Origin: a virus
Direction: 5' to 3' (one strand)
Virus record (IMG/VR): IMGVR_UViG_3300025137_000246
Span: 1 to 26,162 of that record
Length of the DNA stretch: 26,162 nt
A program made the translations under genes and the position numbers. Shown piece by piece: positions 112-25,804 of the stretch (positions are counted from its first letter, which is position 1; each line of letters begins with the position of its first letter). The notes under the pieces are model-generated. The model saw only the letters and a program-made list of their open reading frames with translations. It did not search any database and had not been told where the DNA came from.

Positions 112-421
112 ACACTACTACGAAATGGAAGAATCATTTCTAGAAGACCTTGAATCTTTGCCTTCGCTTTACAGTGCAGGAATTATAATGCAACTAGACA
201 ACTTAGCTGAAGACATGTATCAAAGAAACAGAAAGTCTGTGCCAACTAAAAGGATTGGTAAGGTTGCTGGAGTTGTAGCAATGGACGACCCACTTTTTTT
301 TAGTGTGGAATACTTAAACAGCAAAACAATGCACCCACTGTTTTATAAATTTAACATCATAGACAGTGACCAATACTTAGATTACATTAACCTAAATAAA
401 ACTATCAAACATGAAGCTTGA
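80..421 (+). CDS. Hypothetical acidic phage protein (113 aa)
   Basis: I do not recognise this family. The protein is soluble, with no signal peptide or membrane segment. Its N-terminus is acidic (DEHYYEMEESFLEDLESL), and it has a basic middle (QRNRKSVPTKR) and a beta-rich C-terminal half. The ATG at 80 lies inside the nuclease gene; an alternative ATG at 125 lies just after the nuclease stop, behind a purine run (AGGGGA), and would give a 98-residue product. The gene ends with an 11-base overlap into the DnaA-like gene, so the two are probably translationally coupled. Its place between a nuclease and a DnaA-like protein suggests a replication-associated role, but nothing in the sequence proves it. 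Confidence 0.6.
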   Translation: MDLPQKYTGDEHYYEMEESFLEDLESLPSLYSAGIIMQLDNLAEDMYQRNRKSVPTKRIGKVAGVVAMDDPLFFSVEYLNSKTMHPLFYKFNIIDSDQYLDYINLNKTIKHEA

Positions 422-809
422 ATTAATTGAAGATTTAGTAGTAAGAGAATTTCAAAATGATTTTACTATTCCAGTAAGAACCCAAGAGAATGTATACCAG
501 AGAGCTGTATATTATAGAATATGCAGAGAGTTTACTAATAAATCCTTAAAAGATATAGGGTATTCAATTGGCAGAGACCACGCTACAGTCCTGCATGGTA
601 TAAAAATATTTAAAAACTTTGAGCTGTGGGGAGAGGAAAGACTATTAGATTCCTATTTAAAAATTAAAAATAAGGTTCAGAAAAAGAAAGATAAAGAGTA
701 CCGCTCGGCTTTAAATCGTAAGCAGACATACAAGCTTTTACTTAACCAGTACATCAACCTCAAAGAAAAAAATTATAAATTAAAACAATCATTACAAAAA
801 ATTTCCTAA
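411..809 (+). CDS. Stand-alone DnaA domain IV-like DNA-binding protein
   Basis: Residues about 27-70 match the C-terminal DNA-binding domain of the bacterial initiator DnaA: the helix REFTNKSLKDIGYSIG is followed by the signature GRDHATVLHG (residues 54-63), which in DnaA recognises the DnaA box. The protein is only 132 residues and lacks the AAA+ ATPase and oligomerisation domains, so it cannot be a full initiator. Residues 78-130 form a Lys-rich helical or coiled-coil tail. It may bind a phage replication origin, compete with host DnaA, or regulate early genes. The fold call is strong; the function is inference. It lies in a + strand cluster with a VRR-NUC nuclease, and its start overlaps the upstream gene by 11 bases. 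Confidence 0.85.
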   Translation: MKLELIEDLVVREFQNDFTIPVRTQENVYQRAVYYRICREFTNKSLKDIGYSIGRDHATVLHGIKIFKNFELWGEERLLDSYLKIKNKVQKKKDKEYRSALNRKQTYKLLLNQYINLKEKNYKLKQSLQKIS

Positions 810-11848: not shown

Positions 11849-13633
11849 TTACGGATAGCTTTTCATTACTTCGCTTTCTACAGCAAAGAGTTCCGTAGCC
11901 TGTGTATTAAAGTTAGTAATAGTAAATACACAATAATGCCCCAGTAAACCATGAGACTCTGCCTCTGAGCTTTTGATAAACATAATGTAAGGATTGTCCA
12001 GCGGAAACACTACAGTGTCAGCAGAGGTTGTGCTTACTATCAATTGATTAATACCATTTTGTAAATCTATATTTATTTGTGTTACTATTCCTCCAAAAAC
12101 AACATCAGTATATTGAGGAACTGCGTGATACACATAGTCACCTACACTTATAAAGTTTCCTATAGACACTAATGGGTCAGTAGAAAAACTAAGGGTGGTT
12201 GTTCCTTGAGTTATAGCTACACTTGATGTCTTACCTATACCATTAGCAGACCTCATAGCGTATTGCCCTTTTAAAGCGGGGACTTCACCTCTTTGTCTTA
12301 GGTATGCAAACCATGCACCTTCTTTTTTCTCAAACCATCCATCCTGCATAAACCCGTTTATTTGTATGTCAGTTTCAAGGTATGACTGCCACGCATCGTT
12401 TGACTCTAAATTTAAAGTTTTAAATATTTTATTCTCTAAAGGGTTTTGATTAAACACACTTGTAATCTGTGAATGAAATTGTTGTCCGTAATAATTGTTT
12501 CTTAAAGGGTTGGTGTTGTGTTGAAATAAATTACCACCTTTAAATGTGTAAAAGAAATTATTCATTCCTATCATATACTCTGGTATATAAGAGTAAAAGG
12601 ATGGCCATCCCTGTGAGTTTTGACTATAACTAACTGTCCACTCTGTATCTACCGGTGACGGTATTGGAGGTACAACACTAGGAGGTGTTACAGGTGTAGG
12701 TGTGGGGGTTGGTGTAGGTGGACTGGAAGGATTACAATCTGTTGAAAATCTTAGGTTATTTTGTCCTAAAAAATATGCTCCATTAGTAGATAAAGGGTAG
12801 AGTGTTTGATAACTTATAGCTCCAAAATCATTATTGACATTTAATGTTATAGTGCCAGAATAAAATTTGTAAACATTCCCGTCTAAAGCTGTTGCCTCTC
12901 TCTCAACCTCAGTATTTCCAGTATATGAAATTAAATTTTCTTTTCCATTGTTTAAAAAAGCAATTGGCCACTCTGCTGGTACGCCTGTTATTTGATATAC
13001 CCCAGTGTTAACTTCATATATTCCAAACTCACCATTAATTACATAGAAATTTGCAGTAATATCTTGAAAAGTTAATTCATTAACCGTAAGTATATTGGTA
13101 AAACTCAAACAATATTGTGCTGTTCCAGGAGGAACTGGAGGAACTGGAGGTGGAGCTGGTGGTGGAGCTATAGCTGCTAAACAAGTTGCGCAATCAGCAA
13201 ACACTTGTTGTATATCTTGAATATCTAAAGACGAGGTACTACTTGTACTAACACCATTACTCCAACATATAGATTGATAAGCCATAGTGTTGGGCCACGC
13301 AGTAAATCCGGCTGGAGCTCTAAATATTTGTTTCTGACTTGCCGCATTACAATTCTCATACTCATAATAAATATAACCCGCAATAGGAGTAGGGTCGGCA
13401 GTCCCACAATTCGTATCACATACTAACCCTTTAGTAGTCCACTCTCCACCAGTTCCATTAGGTATTATAGTATCCTTTGAAGGATTATCCAAACAATATG
13501 TAGCAAAAGTGTTAACAGGTACGTCAATTTGTATTTCTTTCCCGTCACAACAAGTAACTATCCATGAACAAATTGCGGTATTGCTCCCCACTGTATCAAT
13601 AGGACACGAAAAACGTACTGACAGACAAGCCAT
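11849..13633 (-). CDS. Tail/structural protein with Cys modules, two proline-rich linkers and conserved C-terminal domain (594 aa)
   Basis: Modular virion protein. Residues 1-76 are Cys-rich (ten Cys). Residues 86-151 form a module ending DCATC that is also found in the 906-residue adhesin. Residues 156-170 are a proline tract (APPPAPPPVPPVPPG). Residues 171-300 look like a beta domain, and 303-328 are a second linker (SPPTPTPTPTPVTPP). Residues 330-594 form a domain with WPSFYSYIPEYMIGMNNFFY and a later NQNPLENKIFKTLNLES, which I associate with tail proteins of marine Bacteroidota phages and crAss-like phages, often as part of the large tail protein. It lies immediately after the hydroxylase/glycosyltransferase pair, making its proline linkers candidate substrates. 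The structural assignment is fairly firm; the exact position in the tail is unknown. Confidence 0.7.
   Translation of the reverse strand: MACLSVRFSCPIDTVGSNTAICSWIVTCCDGKEIQIDVPVNTFATYCLDNPSKDTIIPNGTGGEWTTKGLVCDTNCGTADPTPIAGYIYYEYENCNAASQKQIFRAPAGFTAWPNTMAYQSICWSNGVSTSSTSSLDIQDIQQVFADCATCLAAIAPPPAPPPVPPVPPGTAQYCLSFTNILTVNELTFQDITANFYVINGEFGIYEVNTGVYQITGVPAEWPIAFLNNGKENLISYTGNTEVEREATALDGNVYKFYSGTITLNVNNDFGAISYQTLYPLSTNGAYFLGQNNLRFSTDCNPSSPPTPTPTPTPVTPPSVVPPIPSPVDTEWTVSYSQNSQGWPSFYSYIPEYMIGMNNFFYTFKGGNLFQHNTNPLRNNYYGQQFHSQITSVFNQNPLENKIFKTLNLESNDAWQSYLETDIQINGFMQDGWFEKKEGAWFAYLRQRGEVPALKGQYAMRSANGIGKTSSVAITQGTTTLSFSTDPLVSIGNFISVGDYVYHAVPQYTDVVFGGIVTQINIDLQNGINQLIVSTTSADTVVFPLDNPYIMFIKSSEAESHGLLGHYCVFTITNFNTQATELFAVESEVMKSYP
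12661..12731 (-). repeat. Threonine/proline-coding low-complexity tract
   Basis: A run of G-rich hexamer-like units (GGTGTA, GGTGTG, GGGGTT on the + strand) that on the - strand encodes the Thr-Pro/Pro-Pro linker at residues about 302-324 of the 594-residue tail protein. It is the same kind of repeat as in the adjacent adhesin gene. Confidence 0.8.
13121..13172 (-). repeat. Polyproline-coding tract
   Basis: GGAACTGGA and GGTGGAGCT repeats on the + strand encode the Ala/Val-Pro-Pro linker (residues 155-170) of the 594-residue protein. Unlike the other linkers it has contiguous prolines, as in extensin-like rather than arabinogalactan-like sequences. Confidence 0.75.
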
Positions 13634-13651
13634 ATAAATATTATTTGATTA

Positions 13652-13659
13652 CAAATTTA
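13652..13659 (-). promoter_or_regulatory. TAnnTTTG promoter-like element before the 594-residue tail gene
   Basis: The - strand sequence is TAAATTTG followed by TAA. It lies in the 45-base gap after the glycosyltransferase stop, ending 18 bases before the ATG at 13633. The flanks are very AT-rich. There is no obvious -33 element. Confidence 0.5.
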
Positions 13660-13678
13660 CGAATTTATAAATTAAGGT

Positions 13679-15094
13679 TTACAAATCACCTCCCCAGTTC
13701 CCAGTGCCATAATGATACGTTTGAATAAAATCAAAATTAAATTTCCCAACTGGATTGAATTGAGCATAAGGCAATACTTTATGCGGTATATTATTGTCTT
13801 TTACAAAATTAGACAATGCAATAGGACCAACTATTTCTCTAACAAAACTACCTTGCGGTCTTCCTTCTATTTCTTTTCTATTTAAAATATCAGGTAAATT
13901 GTTTTTAATATTTACTTTTAAACTTTCTAGAAAAATATTCCATAATCCAGATGGAGGAGAAACTATAAAACCATTTTGATAATCTTCATCTCCTGCAGAT
14001 GACTCTAATAGATAGATAGAGTGACTGTCTAATTGTTTGGTAAAATCATTATGCACCTCAAAATCCATATCACAAATAACACCTCCTATATCTCTTGCTA
14101 TAAGATATCTAACAAAATCTATCTTATAAATAACAGGGCATTGGTTTAGTATCTCATAAAAATCTTTATCGTAATTCATTAAGTAAATGTTTATACCCTC
14201 TCTGTCACACCACTTATTTCTTTTATATCCTTTAATGGTATCCCAACTGTAGTCACATCTAAACCATTCTTTACTCCATCTGTTTTTATCTTGAGGGGCT
14301 ACTTGATGTATTATGTTAGGCCTATACTCTGTGCCATATGTTTTATTAAATTGTTGAATTGTTTTTTTATCATTTTTTAAACCTACTAATCTGGGTTGAC
14401 CTTGATTGGGATGGTATGTTTGTCTTTGATTGGTTTTATCATATAGATGATACACACCAGGGAAAGGAATATTAGTTATATCATACCCAGCTAAAAAAGT
14501 ATTAAAGGTTGCGTATGTTTCTTCAAAATACATATCACCTTTTTGTACGTATATGTCAATGTCCAATACACCTATATCGCTAAAGAAATATCCAGCTGCA
14601 ATTGTACTTGGTCCTAAGTATTTTTTTTCATCTACGCCTTGAGCTCCAGGCCAAAACCTTCCTTTTTCATCAATTTTATCTATCTTATTTATATAACAAG
14701 CATCCCAACTTTTTTTATCTGGCAGGTAATACATAGAAGGAAACCCACTAAATACTACTTTACCCGTATACTCGTCTAAATGAGTCATAAGTTTTTTGTC
14801 AAAGTCTTTATCAAATCTCATGTGAGCATCAATCTGTAAATAATATTTATGATGCGGTTGCACATGATTTCGTATTTGCTCTCTAGCCCACACAACACCA
14901 TTAGTTTTTTTATAACTACTATATACCTCCGTTACATTTGGATAATTTATATTCTCTGGATATTCACTTTGATTAAACACAACAATCTCCAAGTTGTTTT
15001 TATTGGCAGAGTTGTCAAGAATACTATCAATAGTTTTACTTAATTCATTATCACAAAAAGATGCTATTGATATAAGAAGCTCAGGATTATTCAA
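13679..15094 (-). CDS. Bifunctional glycosyltransferase: GT60 (hydroxyproline/polypeptide GlcNAc-transferase)-like fused to GT32-like
   Basis: Two catalytic domains in 471 residues. Residues 6-225 match family GT60 (Pfam GlcNAc, PF11397): LISIASFCDNEL, GVVWAREQIRN (66-76), the metal-binding core YYLQIDAHMRF (D89-x-H91), then EETYATFNTFLAGYDI (191-206) and YHLY. GT60 enzymes transfer alpha-GlcNAc from UDP-GlcNAc to hydroxyproline (Dictyostelium Skp1) or Ser/Thr (trypanosome mucins). Residues 258-471 match GT32 (Gly_transf_sug, PF04488): RPNIIHQV, DFVRYLIARDIGG (326-338) and the DxD motif D342-M-D344, ending HYGTGNWGG. The start is TTG: no in-frame ATG precedes the GT60 core, and an in-frame stop lies two codons upstream. 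It follows the hydroxylase stop by one base, implying coupled expression. I infer sequential addition of two sugars to hydroxylated proline-rich virion linkers; glycan or capsule modification is an alternative. Confidence 0.85.
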   Translation of the reverse strand: MNNPELLISIASFCDNELSKTIDSILDNSANKNNLEIVVFNQSEYPENINYPNVTEVYSSYKKTNGVVWAREQIRNHVQPHHKYYLQIDAHMRFDKDFDKKLMTHLDEYTGKVVFSGFPSMYYLPDKKSWDACYINKIDKIDEKGRFWPGAQGVDEKKYLGPSTIAAGYFFSDIGVLDIDIYVQKGDMYFEETYATFNTFLAGYDITNIPFPGVYHLYDKTNQRQTYHPNQGQPRLVGLKNDKKTIQQFNKTYGTEYRPNIIHQVAPQDKNRWSKEWFRCDYSWDTIKGYKRNKWCDREGINIYLMNYDKDFYEILNQCPVIYKIDFVRYLIARDIGGVICDMDFEVHNDFTKQLDSHSIYLLESSAGDEDYQNGFIVSPPSGLWNIFLESLKVNIKNNLPDILNRKEIEGRPQGSFVREIVGPIALSNFVKDNNIPHKVLPYAQFNPVGKFNFDFIQTYHYGTGNWGGDL

Positions 15095-15095
15095 T

Positions 15096-16382
15096 TTATA
15101 TTATTTTATAATGAACATAAAAATTTCTAAAGAATGCTCCTCCAAACGGCTCGCTTCTTCCATGTTCACAGATAGCTGACTCATATAGTATCATGTCTCC
15201 TGGTTGAGCATATACTTTATACCACTCGCCATCGTGTCCTTGAATATCTAAAGGCCAATCATCTGCATATTTTTTATTTTGACATCCACATCTTAGGTCT
15301 TTGTCTATTATGATAATAGATGATATATGATGTGTTTCCACCCTATCAACATGTTTTTCTAAGGTTGCTCCTTTTTTGTATGACCTTATGCCGTAGATAA
15401 ACGAAGGCTCAATGTTCTCATTGTTAATCCAATTTTGATGAGTTGGCAATAATTGTTTATGTATAAGACTTCTTATAGAAGGCAATGCATCAAAAGAAAG
15501 CAGTTCAGTTTCTCCACCTTTTATTACGTTTTCTTTTCCTTCAAACACCTCATCCACAGCTTTATCTTTTAAAATATTATATGAGTCATTTATTATATTC
15601 CAAACATCTTCTGGACATTTTAATATTTCAAAACCATTCTCAGTAAACTTAGGAATCTGTTCCTTTGATGTAAATATCTTAGGTGTGTTTGTTATTACAG
15701 GGTTTGTTTCTTGTTTTATTAAATCAGAAGCTTTAACAACATAAGATTTTTTTTCAGGATTTGGCTCTATAGTTTTTTTTTCAACGACAGCTTCTTTAGA
15801 ATCATAATACATTTTTTCATCTCCAGCTCCATCCCAACTTTTTTCTCTCCACCAAGAAGTAACAACATACTTTTTACCCTCATCCACAGTAACCCCTTCA
15901 TGTAAATATTGTTCTTGAACTTTTCCGTCTTTTAAATTATGCCACCACAAAGCTTTGCCTGTTTCGGGTTCTATTGTTTTTTGTAGTGTTGGAAAGTATG
16001 TGCCACCCCCTTTATAATCTTCATTAAGATATATCATTAAAGTGTGGGTTCTATTGCCAGATGCTTTACAGTGCATGTCATAGGCAGGGCCACTAAAGAA
16101 ATCATTATGTGGTTTAAAGTATTGACCGGGTTCGTATAGTTGTCCTTGAAGTGCTTCACCTTTAACAAGTTCCAATCCCAATGTTTCGGATATTTGTTTT
16201 TTTATTTTAGACATTACAGGGGTATTCATGTCTAGATTAGATGTGCTTGATGTTCTATGATTAGTAACATCAGTTCGGTCTGTACCCCCTACCACTACTG
16301 ATGAGCGTGAATGGTTAGCGTCAATCATTTTAATTAATTCTTGACACTCCTGTGGCGTAATATAATTGTGTATTTCCTCCAT
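15096..16382 (-). CDS. Two-domain 2-oxoglutarate/Fe(II) oxygenase; N-terminal prolyl 4-hydroxylase
   Basis: Residues 1-185 are a complete prolyl 4-hydroxylase catalytic domain: GQLYEPGQYFKPHND with iron ligands H92-x-D94, NRTHTLMIYLN, KGGGTYFP, GKALWWHNL, then distal His161 and 2-oxoglutarate-binding Lys171 in LHEGVTVDEGKKYVVTSWW. The ten-residue His-to-Lys spacing is that of animal and plant prolyl 4-hydroxylases. Residues 185-245 are a Lys/Glu-rich linker. Residues 246-428 form a second, different oxygenase domain with H344-x-D346 (KHVDRVETH), distal His407 and Arg419 as likely 2-oxoglutarate ligand. Both halves look catalytically intact. There is no signal peptide, so it acts in the host cytoplasm. 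It lies between the proline-rich adhesin and a GT60 transferase, making those linkers the obvious substrate. The first domain is very secure; the second is probably hydroxylase-type with an unknown target. Confidence 0.88.
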   Translation of the reverse strand: MEEIHNYITPQECQELIKMIDANHSRSSVVVGGTDRTDVTNHRTSSTSNLDMNTPVMSKIKKQISETLGLELVKGEALQGQLYEPGQYFKPHNDFFSGPAYDMHCKASGNRTHTLMIYLNEDYKGGGTYFPTLQKTIEPETGKALWWHNLKDGKVQEQYLHEGVTVDEGKKYVVTSWWREKSWDGAGDEKMYYDSKEAVVEKKTIEPNPEKKSYVVKASDLIKQETNPVITNTPKIFTSKEQIPKFTENGFEILKCPEDVWNIINDSYNILKDKAVDEVFEGKENVIKGGETELLSFDALPSIRSLIHKQLLPTHQNWINNENIEPSFIYGIRSYKKGATLEKHVDRVETHHISSIIIIDKDLRCGCQNKKYADDWPLDIQGHDGEWYKVYAQPGDMILYESAICEHGRSEPFGGAFFRNFYVHYKII

Positions 16383-16403
16383 TTGATTTGATTTAATTTC
16401 AAA

Positions 16404-16411
16404 TAAAGTTA
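16404..16411 (-). promoter_or_regulatory. Weak TAnnTTTG-like element before the hydroxylase gene
   Basis: The - strand reads TAACTTTA, one mismatch from TAnnTTTG, in the 53-base gap before the ATG at 16382 (21 bases between). The mismatch at the usually conserved G suggests a weaker promoter or read-through from the adhesin gene. Confidence 0.25.
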
Positions 16412-16435
16412 ATCATAATTATTTAAAATGAAAAA

Positions 16436-19156
16436 CTATGGACAACTTGTAGATGTACATGAAAGTGTAAATGATGAACCATTCCAATATCTATAGAAAA
16501 TACCAGTGTTATAGTATCCTGCTAAAGCCCCTCTTGTTCCTGCGCTATCCCTGTATAAGTTTGTAGCTGTACAGAAATCGGATGTGTTCATGTAAAAAGT
16601 AGTGTATCCACTACAAGTAAAACTTGGAACAGGCGAAGGACCACTCTGGACTATATACTCTAAACTAATAGACGGGTTACTAGGCGTTGGTGTAGGAGCT
16701 GGAGTCGGAGCTGGCGTAGGCGTAGGACTCGGTGTTGGCACTGGTGACGGTGATGGTGACGGTGTTGGAGTTGATGCTAAACAAGTAGTACAATTATTAT
16801 ATATAGCTACTGGACTGTTAGAGTTTATTGTACCTACGCTCCCACCATACTCATAACAATGGCCATCAGCCATTTTTACTGATTGTCCTTCTGATAATAT
16901 AGAAGTTGTAGCCACATTACTGAATGTTCCTGCGCTTCCATCACACCTGTCAATGTTATAATAATACACAGATTGTACGGGAGCTGGGCTTGGACTCGGA
17001 CTTGGAGTTGGACTCGGACTAGGCGTTGGGCTCGGAGTTGGCGTAGGACTAGGCGTTGGGCTTGGGCTTGGAGCAGTTGGCGTACATGCACCACAACTAT
17101 TTTGTACTGAAATTGTTGTTACGCTACAATCTGAAACCGTATTTACTGCTATAATTTCCCAACATTTTGTTCCATTAAATCCTGAACCACATGAGCCCCC
17201 TCCACCTCCGCTAATTTTAAGAGAAACTCCAATTGCATTAGAAGCGTAAGTTCCTGTTACAGTTACAAATGCCGTTGAACTAGAATTATTACAATCTCTA
17301 ATTTGAATATTAGTTGTTGGCGTTGGCGTAGGAGCTGGAATCGGACTTGGCGTAGGAGCAACACACGTAGTGATAGCCTGAACAACTCCTGTAGAAAGAA
17401 TTAAATATTTACTATCAGTCGATTGTGGCAAATAGCCTAATGTATTAGAAATACTAAACCATTCTAATCCTCCATTAAAGACAGTAGTTTTAGATGAATT
17501 TGCATATAGTATATCTCCAACTATAATCTGACCTACAGTTGCTCTATCAGAAAATACAAAATAATCTGTTCTAGCATTACACGCATTAGCTTCAGTATAA
17601 CCTTGTTGTGGTAAACCATTAATATACATTGATGGATTTTCACAACCCAGACAACCTCCAAAACTTGTAAGAGACTCAACACTTATATTTGAACTTGCAG
17701 TAGTGGTTTGTGTAAAGCTAAAACATAAATCACTTCCACTTACATTATATCTAACCACACTTGGGAAACTAGCAGTTGTAGTAAGTTTTCTAAATACCTC
17801 AGTTGTTGATGTCTGACATTCAGTATATATAGCATAATCATATTGCGGTGTTGCTCCACAAGCTGAACAGCTACTAAATGTAGAATTAAGAACGGCTGAA
17901 GAATCAAAAGATGTTGCAGCGTTGTCAATAATTTCCCAACAAGTAGAACCAGTAAACTCTGGGTTTGGTGCGCTAGCTGCGCCCGTTATTTGTATTACAA
18001 TACCATTAGCTAAAGTTGGCGCTGTTAAACCTGTTACTCTTACTTTGTAAGTTGGAGTCGTAGTGAAACATTCTCTTATTTCCACATCTTGGAAAGTTGC
18101 TGCTGTTGGCGTTGGCGTTGGAGCTGGTGTAGGTGTACAATTCACAATTGCGTCTACAACTCCTAGTGCACTAATTAATAAAGCATAGCCACTATCTAAG
18201 TTTGGATAATGACCATTTACGTTTGTTACACCATAAAAATTTGTTCCACCATTCCACACATTTGTTAATCCTGAATTAGTGTATATAATATCTCCAGTTT
18301 GAATCGAAGCTACATTAGCTCTTGAGGTATACATACTATTAGTTGCTTGCGCAACACACGCAGTAGCTGAGTTTCCTACTCCGTTTCCTACTGTATATGT
18401 AGAAAATATTTGTGTACCACTTACAGCAGGCACAGGACTTGGTGTAGGTGTTGGGCTTGGCGATGGACTTGGACTTGGCGTTGTAGCCTCACAAGTAGCA
18501 CAATCTCCATAAAAATCAGTTATATCATTTGTACTTGTTAATGTGGTTGTTTGTGGGCTTTCATAACAACAAACACCATCTTTTACAACAGCAGGGAACG
18601 TACTCCCTGTAACCTTTCTAAATACTTTTGTGCTAGCTCCTCCACACGTTGAAGTACTACAAAGAGTATATTCTCTAAAATCATAAGTAACCGTTGGAAC
18701 AGGTGTTGGTATTGGACTTGGTGTAGGGCTTGGACTTGGGCCAGGAGCAGGTGTTGTACCACAAGCGGCACAGTCAGCATAACTCACTAAACCATTAACA
18801 TTTATAGTAGATGTTGAACCAGTGGCTTGAGGGTTGTGATAACAAATACTATTATAAGATACAGATGCTGGAAAAGTTCCTCCTTGAACTATTCTAAATA
18901 TTTCATTACTACTTACTCCATCACAAGCTGTATACACTCTGTAATCATAAACTACTGGGACTGGTGTTGGAGTAGGCGTTCCACAGTTAGGACAATCATC
19001 TTCAGCAAATAATACTCCTGAAGCTTGTTGCCTTACTATTGATTGGTCTGAATACCACCCATCAGGAGCAAAACTAGATAGCGCTGCATCTAAATATAAT
19101 GCAGTAGCAGTTGAAAAACTTGCTGAGCTATAATAATATGTTCCTGTTGTTGCCAT
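16436..19156 (-). CDS. Modular Cys- and Pro-rich tail adhesin (906 aa)
   Basis: A mosaic of small Cys-containing modules joined by (Ser/Thr/Ala)-Pro linkers; almost certainly a surface-exposed tail fibre or receptor-binding protein. Type A modules (start YDY or YDF, then IFR or VFR...FP, end DCAxC or GCLGC) occupy about 70-132, 158-222, 437-503 and, divergent, 728-790. Type B modules (RANVASIQTGDIIYTNS...VWNGG) occupy 247-338 and 517-596, with related ends at 6-58 and 845-906. Type C modules (IREC or IRDC...CWEII...C-x-AC) occupy 353-432 and 613-690. Linkers lie at about 60-69, 134-156, 224-243, 338-350, 597-612, 689-725 and 792-824. There is no transmembrane segment or coiled-coil. Its neighbours are a large tail protein upstream and the hydroxylase/glycosyltransferase pair downstream. 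The module types are my own reading; I do not recognise a named family. Confidence 0.75.
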   Translation of the reverse strand: MATTGTYYYSSASFSTATALYLDAALSSFAPDGWYSDQSIVRQQASGVLFAEDDCPNCGTPTPTPVPVVYDYRVYTACDGVSSNEIFRIVQGGTFPASVSYNSICYHNPQATGSTSTINVNGLVSYADCAACGTTPAPGPSPSPTPSPIPTPVPTVTYDFREYTLCSTSTCGGASTKVFRKVTGSTFPAVVKDGVCCYESPQTTTLTSTNDITDFYGDCATCEATTPSPSPSPSPTPTPSPVPAVSGTQIFSTYTVGNGVGNSATACVAQATNSMYTSRANVASIQTGDIIYTNSGLTNVWNGGTNFYGVTNVNGHYPNLDSGYALLISALGVVDAIVNCTPTPAPTPTPTAATFQDVEIRECFTTTPTYKVRVTGLTAPTLANGIVIQITGAASAPNPEFTGSTCWEIIDNAATSFDSSAVLNSTFSSCSACGATPQYDYAIYTECQTSTTEVFRKLTTTASFPSVVRYNVSGSDLCFSFTQTTTASSNISVESLTSFGGCLGCENPSMYINGLPQQGYTEANACNARTDYFVFSDRATVGQIIVGDILYANSSKTTVFNGGLEWFSISNTLGYLPQSTDSKYLILSTGVVQAITTCVAPTPSPIPAPTPTPTTNIQIRDCNNSSSTAFVTVTGTYASNAIGVSLKISGGGGGSCGSGFNGTKCWEIIAVNTVSDCSVTTISVQNSCGACTPTAPSPSPTPSPTPTPSPTPSPSPTPSPSPSPAPVQSVYYYNIDRCDGSAGTFSNVATTSILSEGQSVKMADGHCYEYGGSVGTINSNSPVAIYNNCTTCLASTPTPSPSPSPVPTPSPTPTPAPTPAPTPTPSNPSISLEYIVQSGPSPVPSFTCSGYTTFYMNTSDFCTATNLYRDSAGTRGALAGYYNTGIFYRYWNGSSFTLSCTSTSCP
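16682..16772 (-). repeat. (T/S/A)-P linker-coding tract of the adhesin, C-terminal
   Basis: About fifteen degenerate hexamers of the form GGnGTn/GGnGCn on the + strand encode dipeptides Thr-Pro, Ser-Pro, Ala-Pro and Val-Pro between the fourth type A module and the C-terminal module. Third-position variation is high, so the protein pattern rather than the exact DNA is conserved. Confidence 0.85.
16979..17082 (-). repeat. Longest (T/S)-P linker-coding tract of the adhesin
   Basis: A roughly 104-base array of GGACTC/GGCGTT-type hexamers encodes seventeen or so Ser-Pro and Thr-Pro dipeptides (for example SPSPTPSPTPTPSPTPSP). This is the longest such linker in the window and the best single candidate for clustered hydroxyproline glycosylation. 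Confidence 0.85.
18426..18484 (-). repeat. (S/T)-P linker-coding tract of the adhesin, third linker
   Basis: A hexamer array encoding Thr-Pro/Ser-Pro dipeptides (TTPSPSPSPSPTPTPSPVPA) between the second type A module and the first type B module. Shorter tracts with the same pattern lie at 17313-17362, 18104-18137 and 18956-18980 in the same gene. Confidence 0.8.
18691..18757 (-). repeat. (S/T)-P linker-coding tract of the adhesin, second linker
   Basis: Encodes TTPAPGPSPSPTPSPIPTPV between the first and second type A modules. The hexamer pattern is the same as in the other linkers. Confidence 0.8.
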
Positions 19157-19167
19157 TTACAATTTTA

Positions 19168-19175
19168 CAAAGTTA
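19168..19175 (-). promoter_or_regulatory. TAnnTTTG promoter-like element before the adhesin gene
   Basis: The - strand reads TAACTTTG followed by TAA, inside a gap of only 24 bases between the 1655- and 906-residue genes, ending 11 bases before the ATG at 19156. If it is a promoter the leader would be only a few bases long. Confidence 0.5.
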
Positions 19176-19180
19176 ACCAT

Positions 19181-22100
19181 TTATACTGAACATCTTGAAT
19201 CTCCACATCCTGATACTTGAACTATTACTTCTCCGTTTTGCCCAGTTCCTCCAACATCATATAAAGACGCACATCCAATTGTTGTTCCAAATTGATATTG
19301 AACTTCATCGCCCACAACTATATTTAAAGTTTGATTTGCTTTTAAATATACCGCTTGTAAGCTTACACAATCTATTCCCAAGAAGTAATCATACACTGGT
19401 GCTGGTGCTGGCGTTGGCGCTGGTGTAGGGCTTGGCGTTGGCACTGGTGTAAATGTACAATTACAACATGCATCAAATAAACTTGTTGATGAATAACAAA
19501 GTTGTTGACCTACTGAATTTCTTAAATCATATATCAAATAAAGTTTGTTTCCATTTGCAGGCAAACCAAATTGAGCGCTATATAATGTTGGCGCTCCACT
19601 TGAATTAATAGGGGTAGCTTGAACAGAAGCAGCTAATAAAATATTAATATCCGTAGAATTATTTCCAAACAAAGCATCCGTCCTCAAATATCTAAATTCA
19701 TTTTCTGTAGGGTCAAATTGGAAATTATCAAAATTTATTTTATTACTTCTCATTGTTATAACAGCACCATTTGGTGGTATAATTCCTGAACCTTGTGGAC
19801 CTTCTAACTCTCTATATTGAGAAACGATAGGGTCGCTTGGACTAGCTAAAAATGTAACTAAATCAGATTGAGTTGGAGAAACTATCGATGAGTCAGACCA
19901 ACTAAATTCTGTGTGTGAAAATTGTCCAGAGTTTGCATTTGTTGTAAGCGTTACACTATAAACACTAAACAATTCTTCTTCTGGACATTTTACCGTTACT
20001 TGAATTGTATCGTTTACTATTGCATCAGACGAAACAATCATAACAACTTCAGTAGGCGTGGGATTTGGTTTTGGAAATACTAAAGTACCACTTTGATAAA
20101 CAACACCTGTTGTGTATGTAACACCATCATAGATAGCTTGAATGGTATAACCAGTACCCGAAACCTGTCCTTCAGTTTCAATATCTACTCCTGCTTCCGT
20201 AACAACTTGCTGTTCTGTTCCCTCGGTAACTATTAAATCTGTATTCTCAAAAGGAATTACATAATCTATTTCTACATAATACAACTTAGTAGGAGGCCCG
20301 ATGTCTTCACCTATATCGACACAATACACAAATTCTTGACCAGCAACAATTGTAATGTTTTTTGTTACACCACATGCTGTACATAACTCTGTTTCTGGTT
20401 TAACAATTGTGTTTGTTGTAAAAACATATTCTTGCATATAGGGGTCATACCCACCTAATTTTTGTGTAGCCGAAGCTTCAGCAAATAAATCTCTAAACCA
20501 GCTTCTCATTCCCTCATTAGAAATCACAGTTAAAACTTCATTCTGAGCTGAACTACCTGTAAGTTTTATAACAACATTTCTTTTTGCATCTGTAAAGTAT
20601 TTATTCTCACCAAACGTAGCAAAACTTTCAGGGTGATTACTAATACCAAACTCTTCTATTCTTGCAATTTGTGTGCCCAATACTTCTGGAACTGATGTTA
20701 CCACTCCTCCTCCTGTAGAATCAGATAATAAATTTTTACCTGCAAGAACGTAGGATATTTTATCTTCCTGTAGAGTAAGTACGTCCGTCTCTCTGGCAAA
20801 TAATATTTCAACATCACCATACGTTTCTTCTAATGGTTTAAAATTAGCTAAACCTAAATTAAACTCATTAAGCCTGTTTACATTTGATTCATCATTAAAA
20901 ACTCCACTATAAGTTATGTCAGCAAATCTATGCGCAGCTTTGTATTCCTCATTAGATGTTGTAAAAACTCTATTTCCTAAATTAAAAGATTTACCTTTTA
21001 TTGAATCTCTAATCCTATAACTTTCTACACCATTTCCAAAAGCATAACAATTTGTAAAACCAGGGTTTATTTTAGCAGGCAAAGTAACCGTTTGATTTTG
21101 AACATTACCTAAATGAAAACCATTGCTTATATCAAAAGATTCACTGTTTTCATACCAAACGTCAGGCAAAGCATCTGCTGGTTCTGTTTCAAAAACATAA
21201 GTAGCTCCATCTCCCCTATACACTGTGAATGAAATTTCAAGCATAGACTCAGTTGCATCCGTGTCACCATAAGAAATAGGACCTGAAGCTAAAAGATATA
21301 TTAAGTTGTTTCCATTAGAGTCTTGTGTGCTGTCATCCTCATATAATCTGTAGTAAAAATTTTCATTAAAATCTAATGTTGAAGGACTCCCCCCTCCAAA
21401 ATAAGTAGTAGCGTTCAATTCACCAATGTTTTTACAACCAAGATTTACATTAGGAGTTGTAAAAGGTGGGGCGCTATTGGTTACTTGAGGGCCTACAAAA
21501 GTATTATTAATAACTATCTTTTCACCTGGATTTTTAATTCCACTATTTAAAGTGCTAGCAACGTTATCGCCAATAAACCAATTAGCCATATTGGTGTAAT
21601 TGGTTGATGCAGTAAGCGTTTGCTCTAAGGTGTAATTTTGTCTTCCCCCAGCATTACTTGAGCCCGTTCCGTTTCTTCTTGTTTCAATCCTCATTACAAT
21701 TCTACTTCCTACAGGCACATCGTATACGTCATAAGTTGAAGTTAAAGGAGCGCTTCTATTTACTGTAGTAAAAAACGGGAATGCTATTGTAGGTATATCA
21801 CCACTAGTAGTACACGTTTTTTTAATTGGGTCAACAGCAATTACAGCATTAGGGTCTTGTATAGATGAAAAATTAGAAGCGTTTATTTTCATGTACACCC
21901 CTCCTATAACATCTACTGCAGTTCCTGCAGCATCAAAAATTGTAATAAATCCGCTTGCTTGAGCTTCTTTTTCTAATACGGTTGCTCTAATACATCTAGT
22001 TGTTGGTCCAGTATTGTCAGCCTTTACAATCAATGTATCACCCGCCTCTACTTTAGTAGCATTTTCACCATCTAATAAAAAATAACTTGAACTAGAAACA

Positions 22101-24148
22101 GTATCTCTATAAGCTATATTACTATATATAGTTTCATAAGTATCTTTTGTAGGCTTTATAACAAACTTATATTTTGTTGCCCAAGCAGGCGCAGGAGAAT
22201 TTTGAGGTATTTCTACTTGTATAAAGTTTTTACTAGTAGACTGGCTGCATGGTATGTTAATTGAAGCACCTTCTTGAGCAGTACTAACTAAAGCTGTAGA
22301 TGCACGATTAAAGTCATCCATGTAAACAATTCCAACTTCGTAACCTCTATTACTATGTAAACTCTCAGCATTTCCAGTGTCATTAAATGTAGCACTCTCA
22401 TTGACAATTCTCCAATAAGCATACCCTGACTGTGAAACATTGTCTCCGTAAAGTCCAGCTAAATTTTGTATGTTTAAAAGAGTTGATGATGTTCCGTTTA
22501 TTGTTGCTGCTATAGACTCTCCTGCATTAGGCAATACAGCCGTTCCCGAAGTTCTTCCTGTTTGCTGCAAGCTATAAGTAGAATCTAAATTTTCAGGTAT
22601 TGTTCTGTTAAAAACATCTGTTAAAGTATTTCCAAGACCAGCTTGAGCATTAGCAACAGTTTGTATTGTTCCGTTTACCCCATCAGTTCCTATCTTTTCT
22701 TGAAAATCTGTACTTGTAACAAAATTATATACATTTGCATAATCTTCAATTAAAGTATAAGACCACGACATGTCAAATACAGCTGTCGTAGGCGTTGGGT
22801 CAACAGCAACACTACCTATTTTTTTAAACTCTATAAATGTAATACCAAAATTAAAATTTAAACGTGTTCCTTTTTTTAATTTAGATTCTCCTTGCACTAA
22901 TGGACTTAAATCAATATTTAAAATTGAATCAGAAATAGTTGAACTTGAAGATGTGGGTGTGTACGTAAACTGACCAGCACTTGTGTGAGCTTCAGTAGTT
23001 ATAACTGATATTAATTGTGATTTATAACTAGCTGTAAAATTTAAAGCAAGAGAAGTGCCGTCAGATGTTTTTAAATCATATCCTTCAAAATAATTACCAT
23101 ACATCAATCTGTTACCCATCAACGTTTGAGCTTTAGCTATTTGAGGAACATTGTCATACAATCTTAAAATTTCTGAACTTGGTAATACAGTAAATATTTC
23201 TCGATTAGTAAACTCATACTGTAAGTCAGTGTTATTTAAGTTTCCTAAATCTTTTCTTTTATTTAAAGTTTTAATAACCTTTATAGATGAATTATCTGCT
23301 TCTTTAAATAATAATTGAATATCTGTAACACTTGAACTACCTGTATTATAAGTAATAGATACAGCGTTATTTTGATTTACCATACCTTCATTCAGATAAC
23401 TATTAGTAGTAAAGTCAAAATTACCCGGACTAAATGCTGGCTCAGTAAATTGTGATATAGCAGAAAACTCATTGTTAGCATACTTATATCTGTAAGCAAA
23501 ACATAAAAACTTATCTTCTAAATATGCATCAGTTATACTTGCAACATAATAAGGCACGATTTTAGGAGAGCTTGTTGGAGGTTTCTTAATTACCAATATA
23601 TCATCTTGGTTAAACACATCCACATTTACTCCCAACAAAGGGTCACCGTAGTTTTGATTAATATTAACTACTCTAGGAGGGTTTGTGTTATCTGTAAAAA
23701 ATAAAAGATTATCAATTTTATCTACACCTGTAATTAGAAAATTTGGATTAAAATTTAATGTTGTATTAATACCGTTGCCGTCATTTATACTTATTACATG
23801 ATAAATAAGTTGTCCGGTTTCAACATCAAAAGAAACAATTAAATCTAGTTTACCAGTTGCTCCTTGTGTAAATGCTGGGTCATGAACAAACCAGTACAAT
23901 GCTAAATTAGCTCCATCTTCAAAAGCACCAATACATCTAGCTTGCGAACTTAATGCTGTGCCATCAATATACTGAAGGGTTGTTAGCGGCAAATTACCTT
24001 TAGAATTTTCAACAGCTCCAATCTCAGAATCTTCTGTAGAACCAAGCCTTACATTTACAGCATTTATATACTCTCCATTAGGGACAAGCCTTTCGTCAAG
24101 GCTTTTGTTCATTCGGCCCGCTATAAAATTTCTTTGAATGTTTGCCAT
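19181..24148 (-). CDS. Large tail hub/nozzle-type structural protein (1655 aa)
   Basis: The N-terminus MANIQRNFIAGRMNKSLDER followed by LVPNGEYINAVNVRLGS is characteristic of a large tail (stabilisation-type) protein in crAss-like and marine Bacteroidota phages. The region to about residue 400 has repeated short strands and NPPRVVNIN-type segments compatible with a beta-propeller, as in P22 gp10 or T7 gp12 nozzle proteins. The rest is beta-rich, with CTAC near residue 1250 and VEIDYVIPFENTDLIVTEGT further on. A (Thr/Ser/Ala)-Pro linker lies at about 1566-1584, and residues 1585-1655 form a Cys-containing tail starting VYDYFLGIDC, similar to the adhesin modules. It starts one base after the stop of the 306-residue ring protein. 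The structural role is confident; the exact tail ring it forms is inferred. Confidence 0.7.
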   Translation of the reverse strand: MANIQRNFIAGRMNKSLDERLVPNGEYINAVNVRLGSTEDSEIGAVENSKGNLPLTTLQYIDGTALSSQARCIGAFEDGANLALYWFVHDPAFTQGATGKLDLIVSFDVETGQLIYHVISINDGNGINTTLNFNPNFLITGVDKIDNLLFFTDNTNPPRVVNINQNYGDPLLGVNVDVFNQDDILVIKKPPTSSPKIVPYYVASITDAYLEDKFLCFAYRYKYANNEFSAISQFTEPAFSPGNFDFTTNSYLNEGMVNQNNAVSITYNTGSSSVTDIQLLFKEADNSSIKVIKTLNKRKDLGNLNNTDLQYEFTNREIFTVLPSSEILRLYDNVPQIAKAQTLMGNRLMYGNYFEGYDLKTSDGTSLALNFTASYKSQLISVITTEAHTSAGQFTYTPTSSSSTISDSILNIDLSPLVQGESKLKKGTRLNFNFGITFIEFKKIGSVAVDPTPTTAVFDMSWSYTLIEDYANVYNFVTSTDFQEKIGTDGVNGTIQTVANAQAGLGNTLTDVFNRTIPENLDSTYSLQQTGRTSGTAVLPNAGESIAATINGTSSTLLNIQNLAGLYGDNVSQSGYAYWRIVNESATFNDTGNAESLHSNRGYEVGIVYMDDFNRASTALVSTAQEGASINIPCSQSTSKNFIQVEIPQNSPAPAWATKYKFVIKPTKDTYETIYSNIAYRDTVSSSSYFLLDGENATKVEAGDTLIVKADNTGPTTRCIRATVLEKEAQASGFITIFDAAGTAVDVIGGVYMKINASNFSSIQDPNAVIAVDPIKKTCTTSGDIPTIAFPFFTTVNRSAPLTSTYDVYDVPVGSRIVMRIETRRNGTGSSNAGGRQNYTLEQTLTASTNYTNMANWFIGDNVASTLNSGIKNPGEKIVINNTFVGPQVTNSAPPFTTPNVNLGCKNIGELNATTYFGGGSPSTLDFNENFYYRLYEDDSTQDSNGNNLIYLLASGPISYGDTDATESMLEISFTVYRGDGATYVFETEPADALPDVWYENSESFDISNGFHLGNVQNQTVTLPAKINPGFTNCYAFGNGVESYRIRDSIKGKSFNLGNRVFTTSNEEYKAAHRFADITYSGVFNDESNVNRLNEFNLGLANFKPLEETYGDVEILFARETDVLTLQEDKISYVLAGKNLLSDSTGGGVVTSVPEVLGTQIARIEEFGISNHPESFATFGENKYFTDAKRNVVIKLTGSSAQNEVLTVISNEGMRSWFRDLFAEASATQKLGGYDPYMQEYVFTTNTIVKPETELCTACGVTKNITIVAGQEFVYCVDIGEDIGPPTKLYYVEIDYVIPFENTDLIVTEGTEQQVVTEAGVDIETEGQVSGTGYTIQAIYDGVTYTTGVVYQSGTLVFPKPNPTPTEVVMIVSSDAIVNDTIQVTVKCPEEELFSVYSVTLTTNANSGQFSHTEFSWSDSSIVSPTQSDLVTFLASPSDPIVSQYRELEGPQGSGIIPPNGAVITMRSNKINFDNFQFDPTENEFRYLRTDALFGNNSTDINILLAASVQATPINSSGAPTLYSAQFGLPANGNKLYLIYDLRNSVGQQLCYSSTSLFDACCNCTFTPVPTPSPTPAPTPAPAPVYDYFLGIDCVSLQAVYLKANQTLNIVVGDEVQYQFGTTIGCASLYDVGGTGQNGEVIVQVSGCGDSRCSV
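19395..19450 (-). repeat. (T/S/A)-P linker-coding tract at the end of the large tail gene
   Basis: A hexamer array (GGTGCT, GGCGTT, GGTGTA) encodes PVPTPSPTPAPTPAPAPV just before the final 70-residue module of the 1655-residue protein. It shows that the linker type is shared among three neighbouring virion genes. Confidence 0.8.
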
Positions 24149-24149
24149 T

Positions 24150-25070
24150 TTACTTTATCCACTTATCTTCACCTCTCATATTCATCATTAATCTACTTGG
24201 GTGAATGTTACTTAATCTGATTTTAGCATTTCTTAACAAAGCTTGTTTGTTTTTTCTAACCCTGTTAACTATATACTCTTGAACTCCAAATTTACTATTT
24301 AATAAAGCATACTGTATATAAGCATAAATATAATCTTCAAATAATTTATTTACACTCATTTTAGAATCATCACCATTTTCCATTCCATCAGATATATATT
24401 GTAAAACACATTGTCTATTAGCCATGGTTGAATCAAAATTAATAACACCAGCTTTTTTATCAATTGTAAACGTTGGGTTTATATTAGCTGTTTCCGTGTT
24501 TAAACCATATCTAGCTCCAATACGAGAATTGTATATGTCGCCCTCACAATCAACACAATTACCGTTCTCATCAGCTTCATTGTTTTGATTCAAATAAATA
24601 CTATTTAAAGAACCATCTTTTCTAGCGGCATCTAAAGTTGAACTTACTATAGTTGCGCTATTGTTTGCATCGTATGTAAAAGTAGATGAAGAAGATTGAA
24701 TAAAAGAAACCGCAGATTGTACTTGTATATTCTCAGTAAGCTCTCTTAAAGTATTTCCTTGAAATAAATAAAGCTTAACCCAATTGACATAATCTGAAGG
24801 TAAAACAAATCTTAAGTCATCATAGACAGTAAGCTCTAAATTTTTAATTTCTTTAAAAGCGTCATAGTTTAATTCCTGTATTCCTCGTTTTGCGTGAAAT
24901 AAAATTTTAAACCTATTAACATTGTTTACTAAACCATGATTCCCAGCATACATTAATTGAAAGTTCTTAACGACATCTTCTAAGCTCACATATTGATACG
25001 AGCCCCAATTTTCATCCGTTGGATTAACACCATCATTAGTATAATATTTTCTTTGATTTATATATGCCAT
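24150..25070 (-). CDS. Ring (head-tail adaptor) protein, crAss-like type (306 aa)
   Basis: Starts MAYINQRKYY and contains YVSLEDVVKNFQLMYAG (27-43), NVNRFKILFHAKRGIQELNY (50-69) and a strand-rich PSDYVNWVKLYLF. I associate these motifs with head-tail adaptor/ring proteins of crAss-like phages (P22 gp4-like position). The middle carries a CVDC pair. The C-terminal 80 residues are helical and basic (RVRKNKQALLRNAKIRLSNI). It stands between another ring-type protein (gap of two bases) and the large tail protein (gap of one base), as expected for connector genes. The assignment rests on remembered motif similarity and order. Confidence 0.7.
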   Translation of the reverse strand: MAYINQRKYYTNDGVNPTDENWGSYQYVSLEDVVKNFQLMYAGNHGLVNNVNRFKILFHAKRGIQELNYDAFKEIKNLELTVYDDLRFVLPSDYVNWVKLYLFQGNTLRELTENIQVQSAVSFIQSSSSTFTYDANNSATIVSSTLDAARKDGSLNSIYLNQNNEADENGNCVDCEGDIYNSRIGARYGLNTETANINPTFTIDKKAGVINFDSTMANRQCVLQYISDGMENGDDSKMSVNKLFEDYIYAYIQYALLNSKFGVQEYIVNRVRKNKQALLRNAKIRLSNIHPSRLMMNMRGEDKWIK

Positions 25071-25072
25071 AA

Positions 25073-25804
25073 TTATAAATTAGTTTGATTTTGTTGTTGG
25101 TCTTCTAATTGTCCAAATTGAAACACATCAGATTCTCTAATTGATATACCAGCGTATTGTAATATTTTAGCCACTAAATTATTAGAGTCATCAATAGGTA
25201 ATTCAAAGTCTTGATAATCACTTTGCGTTTGGTCAAACAAAGGTTCACCTCCATACAATGTAACATACGTCCATTTTGGGTCTAAAGGGTATCTTATATA
25301 TTGAGCCTGTATGTCGTTTACATTACTAAATGTATTTGGAAATACGGTTAGCTCACTGGCTTCTTGAACATAAGCTGGAAATGTTGTTGATGGAGAAGTT
25401 AAAAGCGAACTGTTTAACATAGTAATTTTACTGTGCGAGACTTTTTCTGCCTCACCTTTTAATGTTCCTCCAGAAAAACAAAGAACTTTATTAAGTAAAT
25501 AATAATCAGAACCTGTTGTGGATTGAGAAGGTAAAAAATAAACGTTTTGAGTTTTTTGTGTAAGAAACGCAGTTATTGAAAACATATCTATAACTTCTTC
25601 ATACCCTTTTTTAATATCAGCATATCCTGTTCCTGAAACTCTTGCGTTCTCTTCATTAATTTGCTGATTGTATCTTATAAAATATTCGTCAAAAATATCT
25701 AACTGAGCTTGTTTTGCAAATAAATTAAAATCACCTGGAGATATATATCCATAGTTATTCTTGTTGATAATTGCAAGCACAGTATTTCTTACTGAATTTA
25801 TCAT
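25073..25804 (-). CDS. Ring (head-tail connector) protein, crAss-like type (243 aa)
   Basis: The N-terminus MINSVRNTVLAIINKNNYGY and then ISPGDFNLFAKQAQLDIFDE is a signature I know from connector/ring proteins of crAss-like and Cellulophaga phages: a helical start followed by a beta-rich body. The C-terminus is Gln/Asn-rich (QLEDQQQNQTNL). It is the first gene after the strong hairpin terminator, with a TAnnTTTGTAA motif 15 bases upstream of its ATG, so it probably starts a transcript covering the tail genes. Its role, joining portal and tail hub, is inferred from family and order. Confidence 0.7.
   Translation of the reverse strand: MINSVRNTVLAIINKNNYGYISPGDFNLFAKQAQLDIFDEYFIRYNQQINEENARVSGTGYADIKKGYEEVIDMFSITAFLTQKTQNVYFLPSQSTTGSDYYLLNKVLCFSGGTLKGEAEKVSHSKITMLNSSLLTSPSTTFPAYVQEASELTVFPNTFSNVNDIQAQYIRYPLDPKWTYVTLYGGEPLFDQTQSDYQDFELPIDDSNNLVAKILQYAGISIRESDVFQFGQLEDQQQNQTNL

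Follow-up and report, generated by a model that had tools for sequence, protein, structure and literature searches.

The window analyzed here is the whole 26,162-nucleotide stretch of IMG/VR virus record IMGVR_UViG_3300025137_000246, a 26 kb marine Crassvirales-type contig. Genes for a putative adhesin, a tandem hydroxylase and a fused glycosyltransferase lie in it between two parts of the predicted tail-tip muzzle protein, and the adhesin and both muzzle parts carry proline-rich linkers built of X-Pro dipeptides. An earlier note had read this cluster as a candidate system that hydroxylates prolines in the phage's own virion linkers and then glycosylates them, and every element that it listed was found where it had placed it. 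The features are listed below (aa, amino acids; ORF, open reading frame; 2OG, 2-oxoglutarate).

19181-24148, minus strand: predicted N-terminal part of the muzzle protein, 1655 aa; at its end are an X-Pro linker and a small module containing Cys (phrog_14478, E 3e-213)
19397-19450, minus strand: X-Pro linker TPVPTPSPTPAPTPAPAP of this N-terminal part, at the C-terminal end of 19181-24148
16436-19156, minus strand: putative adhesin, 906 aa, 9.8% Pro, Cys-bounded modules connected by X-Pro linkers
16682-18979, minus strand: stretch that holds the adhesin's seven X-Pro linkers (18956-18979, 18695-18754, 18428-18481, 18107-18136, 17318-17359, 16979-17074 and 16682-16771)
15096-16382, minus strand: hydroxylase ORF, 428 aa
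15813-16382, minus strand: hydroxylase domain 1, residues 1-190, prolyl 4-hydroxylase fold, with H92, D94, H161 and K171 and an R43-T44-S45 loop
15099-15677, minus strand: hydroxylase domain 2, residues ~236-428, a second 2OG-Fe(II)-type domain with conserved H344-x-D346, H407 and R409
13679-15094, minus strand: transferase ORF, 471 aa, TTG start, one base past the hydroxylase stop codon
14402-15094, minus strand: GT60-like (PF11397) domain with D89-x-H91
13691-14314, minus strand: GT32-like domain (D342-x-D344), joined to the GT60-like domain in one protein and a separate gene in relatives
11849-13633, minus strand: predicted C-terminal part of the muzzle protein, 594 aa, with a Cys module N-terminally, Pro-rich linkers next and the crass domain PF25729 last
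13127-13168 and 12692-12724, minus strand: two Pro-rich segments of this C-terminal part
24150-25070, minus strand: structural gene R306, probable ring/tail-barrel protein, an independent anchor (phrog_13977)

Assignment to the Crassvirales follows from PF25729, which scores 66.9 bits in 11849-13633 against a Pfam cut-off of 27, and is backed by synteny with Cellulophaga and Flavobacterium phages. Virion structural families were assigned to 19181-24148, 24150-25070 and 25073-25804, R306 being a probable ring protein from crassvirus gene order (PMC10172136). That the cluster is flanked by virion genes, as the earlier note had it, thus stands; the splitting of the muzzle gene and the exchangeable nature of the inserted cassette had escaped it. 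In tblastn searches of isolates, a single ORF of Cellulophaga phage phi38:1, of Calle_1 and of a Flavobacterium elemo phage matches both 19181-24148 and 11849-13633, the two parts are neighboring ORFs in phi13:2, and in MW202828 they are separated by a single 183-aa gene. From these alignments we take the two window ORFs to make up a single crassvirus muzzle protein, 19181-24148 supplying its N-terminal and 11849-13633 its C-terminal part, with the X-Pro adhesin, the hydroxylase ORF and the transferase ORF lying between the two. X-Pro runs are absent from this region in the five cassette-free relative genomes inspected, and no Flavobacterium or Cellulophaga phage record yielded the hydroxylase. 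A PDB sequence search with the muzzle parts gave no matches. The split point of the muzzle gene, which is two ORFs in the window and one in several isolated flavobacterial phages, takes up inserted genes; in one relative (L136) the N-terminal part is fragmented into many short ORFs, by decay or assembly error.

Pro-rich linkers occur in all three of the virion genes in which they had been noted: seven in the adhesin, one in the N-terminal muzzle part, which additionally contains a short FPKPNPTP, and two segments in the C-terminal muzzle part. The product of 16436-19156 would act as an adhesin, and its gene keeps a constant position among relatives, with a highly variable sequence. Small Tyr-rich modules with a terminal CxxC recur in it and are apparently common to the muzzle ends. 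In linkers of the window type the X position is Ser or Thr in 70-83% of cases. Among 120 random viral loci, a run of at least five X-Pro dipeptides occurs anywhere in 2, and a stretch with at least 12 Pro per 30 residues in 4, and the X-Pro runs in three window genes therefore exceed chance. No Gly-X-Y collagen-type substrate lies beside the enzymes; the linkers of the window are of the X-Pro type.

Domain 1 of the hydroxylase matches Pfam 2OG-FeII_Oxy_3 (PF13640) over residues 79-179 (E 8e-15). H92, D94, H161 and the 2OG-binding K171 are invariant across 47 relatives, and the RTS loop is nearly so; the canonical prolyl 4-hydroxylase domain described earlier is thereby borne out. Profile matches in the PDB include 5iax, a Bacillus anthracis enzyme (E 8e-39), and 3gze (E 1e-26). 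Structure comparison, which took in residues 1-197, that is, domain 1, used an AlphaFold2 model (predicted local distance difference test score, pLDDT, 87) and returned 3gze as top match (Z 24.3, root-mean-square deviation 1.6 Å over 181 residues), the Chlamydomonas prolyl 4-hydroxylase crystallized with a (Ser-Pro)5 peptide; bacterial prolyl hydroxylases acting on EF-Tu (5v7y, 4iw3) are among the other matches. Profile and modeled fold place domain 1 among prolyl 4-hydroxylases of the algal (Ser-Pro)n-binding type, and it would be expected to act as one. The earlier description of the gene stopped there, overlooking the second 2OG-Fe(II)-like domain. The motif of domain 2 is kept in tandem and single-domain relatives (phrog_2954, E 1.5e-15), and single-domain homologues adjoin a hydroxyproline O-arabinosyltransferase (HPAT) gene in another phage group. 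Profile-profile comparison of domains 1 and 2 gave no significant match, so the assignment of domain 2 rests on motif and context. In L187, L188 and L228, separate oxygenase pairs were considered as domains 1 and 2 encoded apart, a reading that was dropped because the second gene fails the domain 2 profile.

The transferase has a GT60-like domain, matching PF11397 ("GlcNAc") at 52.5 bits (cut-off 21; E 7e-14), and begins, as had been noted, one base after the hydroxylase. Its N-terminal half is matched by GT60 genes that stand alone in relatives and score 111-136 bits to PF11397, and D89-x-H91 is invariant in these genes and in the close relatives of the window. The model, of moderate confidence (pLDDT 69), has a GT-A fold with a DxH-type metal site, and its Foldseek top matches include polypeptide GalNAc-transferases (GT-A). 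The C-terminal, GT32-like half of the proposed GT60-GT32 fusion scores below threshold in the window (PF04488, 18.5 bits; Pfam cut-off 23); its backing comes from stand-alone genes of relatives that are 37-41% identical to it, and one of these passes PF04488 at 39.3 bits. Searching PDB sequences with the transferase and HPAT gave no meaningful matches, NCBIfam none for hydroxylase, transferase or HPAT, and tblastn found no GT60 or HPAT relatives among deposited phage records.

Hydroxylase and transferase are adjacent and in the same order in 12 of 12 close relatives of the transferase, and in a wider hydroxylase set (172 loci, 80 retained) the order muzzle N-part, adhesin, hydroxylase, cassette, muzzle C-part is kept over dozens of contigs. 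Between the hydroxylase and the muzzle C-part we find genes for GT60, GT32, O-FucT (PF10250), HPAT (PF23452), carbamoyltransferase, epimerase, dehydratase and radical SAM proteins and, in one contig, APS kinase with its neighbors. A hydroxylase tree with 47 tips requires at least 18 switches of cassette label; despite this exchange the cassette nearly always consists of sugar enzymes, and the hydroxylase is its most constant part. HPAT is the plant hydroxyproline O-arabinosyltransferase family, and PF23452 is matched by 9 of 15 members at E <= 0.01 (best E 4.2e-12; L126 28.8 bits against a cut-off of 23.9, L024 21 bits, below it). An oxygenase lies at most three genes away in 72 of 75 HPAT loci, two of the remaining three being at a contig edge. 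As HPAT replaces GT60 behind the hydroxylase, two families both known to act on hydroxyproline alternate in one slot. Of 46 dereplicated tandem-hydroxylase loci, 41 have a Pro-rich gene (at least 12 Pro in 30 residues) nearby, compared with the 4 of 120 random loci. X-Pro stretches free of Ser and Thr, such as repeated Val-Pro, reach 17 dipeptides in some HPAT loci and 13 in some carbamoyltransferase loci; if these are modified, Pro or hydroxyproline is the sole possible acceptor there.

Similar gene sets occur beyond this clade (L187, L188, L194, L198, L228-L230, L273 and L339), with terminase and portal families in L194 and L198 that differ from those of the clade. The co-occurrence of hydroxylase, sugar-transferase cassette and Pro-rich linkers, on which the earlier note had staked its proposal, thus recurs both in relatives and in phages outside the clade. 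Several cassettes deserve mention in their own right. L043 (12791-14137) has three genes behind its hydroxylase that may serve glycan sulfation: one whose start looks by eye like that of a sulfotransferase, one for an APS kinase (PF01583, E 4.5e-15) and one resembling a cytidylyltransferase. L062 (3296-4732) and homologues carry a NodU-like cassette carbamoyltransferase (PF16861, E 1.8e-47), and in L068 (1674-2579) and homologues a radical SAM/SPASM gene separates hydroxylase from GT60. Among one-per-species genomes, HPAT was found in just three metagenome-assembled contigs, possibly mis-binned virus. A Planctomycetaceae metagenome bin contig (L533, 1-8812), bacterial or mis-binned virus, has a GT60-HPAT fusion, a JmjC/cupin-like gene, a gene for an FkbM methyltransferase and another that contains a long Thr-Pro repeat. 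Elsewhere in the window, 411-809 (plus strand) encodes a small protein with a by-eye likeness to the DnaA DNA-binding domain.

Our best explanation, which we consider probable, is that the ORFs at 13679-16382 represent, in the window, a system by which the phage hydroxylates Pro-rich linkers of its tail tip and afterward attaches sugars to them. The computation shows which genes are present, their folds and motifs, the synteny, the exchange of cassettes and a statistical association; enzyme activities, substrate, sugar, order of steps and benefit we infer as follows. Domain 1 would form 4-hydroxyproline in the X-Pro linkers of the adhesin and muzzle ends in the host cytoplasm, the GT60-like domain would place a first sugar on hydroxyproline or on adjacent Ser/Thr, either of which may be its acceptor in the window, and the GT32-like domain would place a second. 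The linkers, extended and decorated, would then display their modules around the tail tip. Hydroxylation plus glycosylation, as read in the earlier note, gains from the co-occurrence, from the algal (Ser-Pro)n-type fold and from HPAT in related loci; the stiffness, receptor mimicry and immune shielding that it attached to the linkers are speculation. A wider reading, which we hold tentatively and at a little under an even chance, is that several phage lineages make hydroxyproline glycoproteins of their own, in which tail-tip X-Pro linkers are marked by a conserved hydroxylase and given a variable glycan by exchangeable genes (GT60, HPAT, fucosyl-, carbamoyl- and possibly sulfo-transferases, sugar-nucleotide enzymes). 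Such a swappable sugar coat would be comparable to bacterial surface-antigen loci.

Several observations weigh against the hydroxyproline glycosylation proposal. One sublineage (L127, L129, L130, L148, L154 and L155) has Ser/Thr-Pro linkers whose X position is Ser or Thr in 79-95% of cases, together with GT60 and GT32 on the contigs that reach far enough, and no 2OG oxygenase was found in its 10-52 kb fragment records. Because GT60 and Ser/Thr-Pro linkers persist there without a detected hydroxylase, GT60 may act on Ser/Thr in that sublineage, and perhaps in the window. (This lineage also has a 147-aa gene between the X-Pro muzzle part and GT60, at 9283-9726 of L129 and in homologues, and further along a gene resembling, by eye, an FkbM methyltransferase.) Outside the set, 44 GT60 loci have neither a hydroxylase nor a Pro-rich gene. 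In an unselected scan, 80 of 83 X-Pro loci are without such an oxygenase nearby and three have one, so X-Pro linkers alone are ordinary and do not predict a hydroxylase. The tandem hydroxylases of L213-L216 and L270, which come with HPAT and/or GT60, are distant from Pro-rich genes, and the remainder of the L213-L215 and L270 records showed no X-Pro pattern. The locus counts are phylogenetically non-independent, since most loci share ancestry. The acceptor of HPAT is itself uncertain, because the family (GT95) is related to the Ser galactosyltransferase family GT96 (PMC8012813). A chlorovirus encodes a prolyl 4-hydroxylase, yet its particles are reported, in a study cited as ref. 162 of PMC7019647, to contain no detected hydroxyproline.

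The transferases might instead glycosylate the Ser/Thr residues of the linkers in mucin-like fashion, with the hydroxylase working separately (for stiffening or a minor modification) and no hydroxyproline-linked sugar in the window. This is what the high Ser/Thr content at X would lead one to expect, in window-type linkers as in the GT60 lineages lacking a detected hydroxylase, and the polypeptide GalNAc-transferases among the structural matches act on Ser/Thr. A trypanosome GT60 enzyme, moreover, adds GlcNAc onto Thr. It would not account for a hydroxylase that stays constant while the transferases behind it are swapped, HPAT among them, nor for the long Ser/Thr-free X-Pro stretches of some relatives, and we regard it as unlikely, though it is the main rival. 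Matches to EF-Tu-acting enzymes, together with the PHROGs category of these oxygenases (auxiliary or host takeover), would suit an oxygenase that serves metabolism or host takeover, for example by acting on EF-Tu, next to sugar genes that change host surface glycans and in an incidentally Pro-rich neighborhood. But the cassette is inserted between the halves of a tail-tip gene, it is associated with Pro-rich virion genes and recurs in phages beyond this clade, and the top structural match is the enzyme crystallized with (Ser-Pro)5, all of which makes this explanation improbable. In some phages 2OG oxygenases and glycosyltransferases serve DNA hypermodification, a base being hydroxylated and then glycosylated. 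Here, however, domain 1 is by profile and fold of the protein prolyl 4-hydroxylase type, the genes sit in the tail module, and HPAT and GT60 are protein glycosyltransferase families; we rejected DNA modification as having next to no probability.

Hydroxyproline glycosylation of the kind proposed for the window has its closest parallels outside phages. In the Skp1 pathway of Dictyostelium and Toxoplasma the cytoplasmic prolyl 4-hydroxylase PhyA acts first, followed by Gnt1 on hydroxyproline (PMC3515798). The window likewise has a prolyl 4-hydroxylase and a GT60-like domain in neighboring genes, but its proposed substrates are virion X-Pro linkers rather than Skp1, a protein not expected in phages or bacteria, its hydroxylase is tandem, its transferase is fused to GT32, and the second-sugar enzymes differ. 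With the hydroxyproline-rich glycoproteins of plants and algae (HPAT/GT95, extensins) it shares the match of domain 1 to the Chlamydomonas (Ser-Pro)-binding enzyme, the HPAT-family genes behind the hydroxylase of many relatives, and X-Pro or poly-Pro repeats as substrate type; it differs in being encoded by a bacterial virus, in having no secretory pathway, and in GT60-GT32 taking the place of HPAT. Mimivirus, too, has a viral hydroxylase and glycosyltransferase for its own repetitive proteins (L230 lysyl hydroxylase/glucosyltransferase and R699; PMC9546862), although these modify lysine in collagen Gly-X-Y repeats, belong to unrelated enzyme families and serve a eukaryotic virus. The PBCV-1 prolyl 4-hydroxylase is a viral enzyme with a fold match to domain 1 (5c5t, Z 21.5), but it is from an algal virus, a transferase partner was not considered for it, and hydroxyproline reportedly went undetected in the particles (ref. 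162 of PMC7019647). Mycobacteriophages carry glycans on capsid and tail tube (PMC12619734, citing Freeman et al. 2023), at the C-termini of these proteins and not on X-Pro linkers, and the description given there mentions no hydroxylase. Phage 2OG-Fe(II) oxygenases of PHROG 61 are widespread in marine phages and have a prolyl hydroxylase-like structure, with no substrate assigned in that work (PMC12774648); the reading given here, by contrast, proposes both for the window, a substrate as well as a partner pathway.

In the open-licence literature searched, we found no earlier description of such a phage system. Its parts are of known kinds; what we did not find described in that literature is their combination in a bacteriophage, with exchange around a constant hydroxylase and insertion in the muzzle gene. 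The locus gives marine phage 2OG-Fe(II) oxygenases a candidate substrate, the tail-tip X-Pro linkers, and a candidate partner pathway. If our reading is correct, hydroxyproline O-glycosylation, known in plants and protists, would reach bacteriophages, where the hydroxylase would stay constant while the glycan locus around it is exchanged. The system could then bear on host recognition, and may be a source of enzymes for hydroxyproline glycopeptides suited to bacterial expression.

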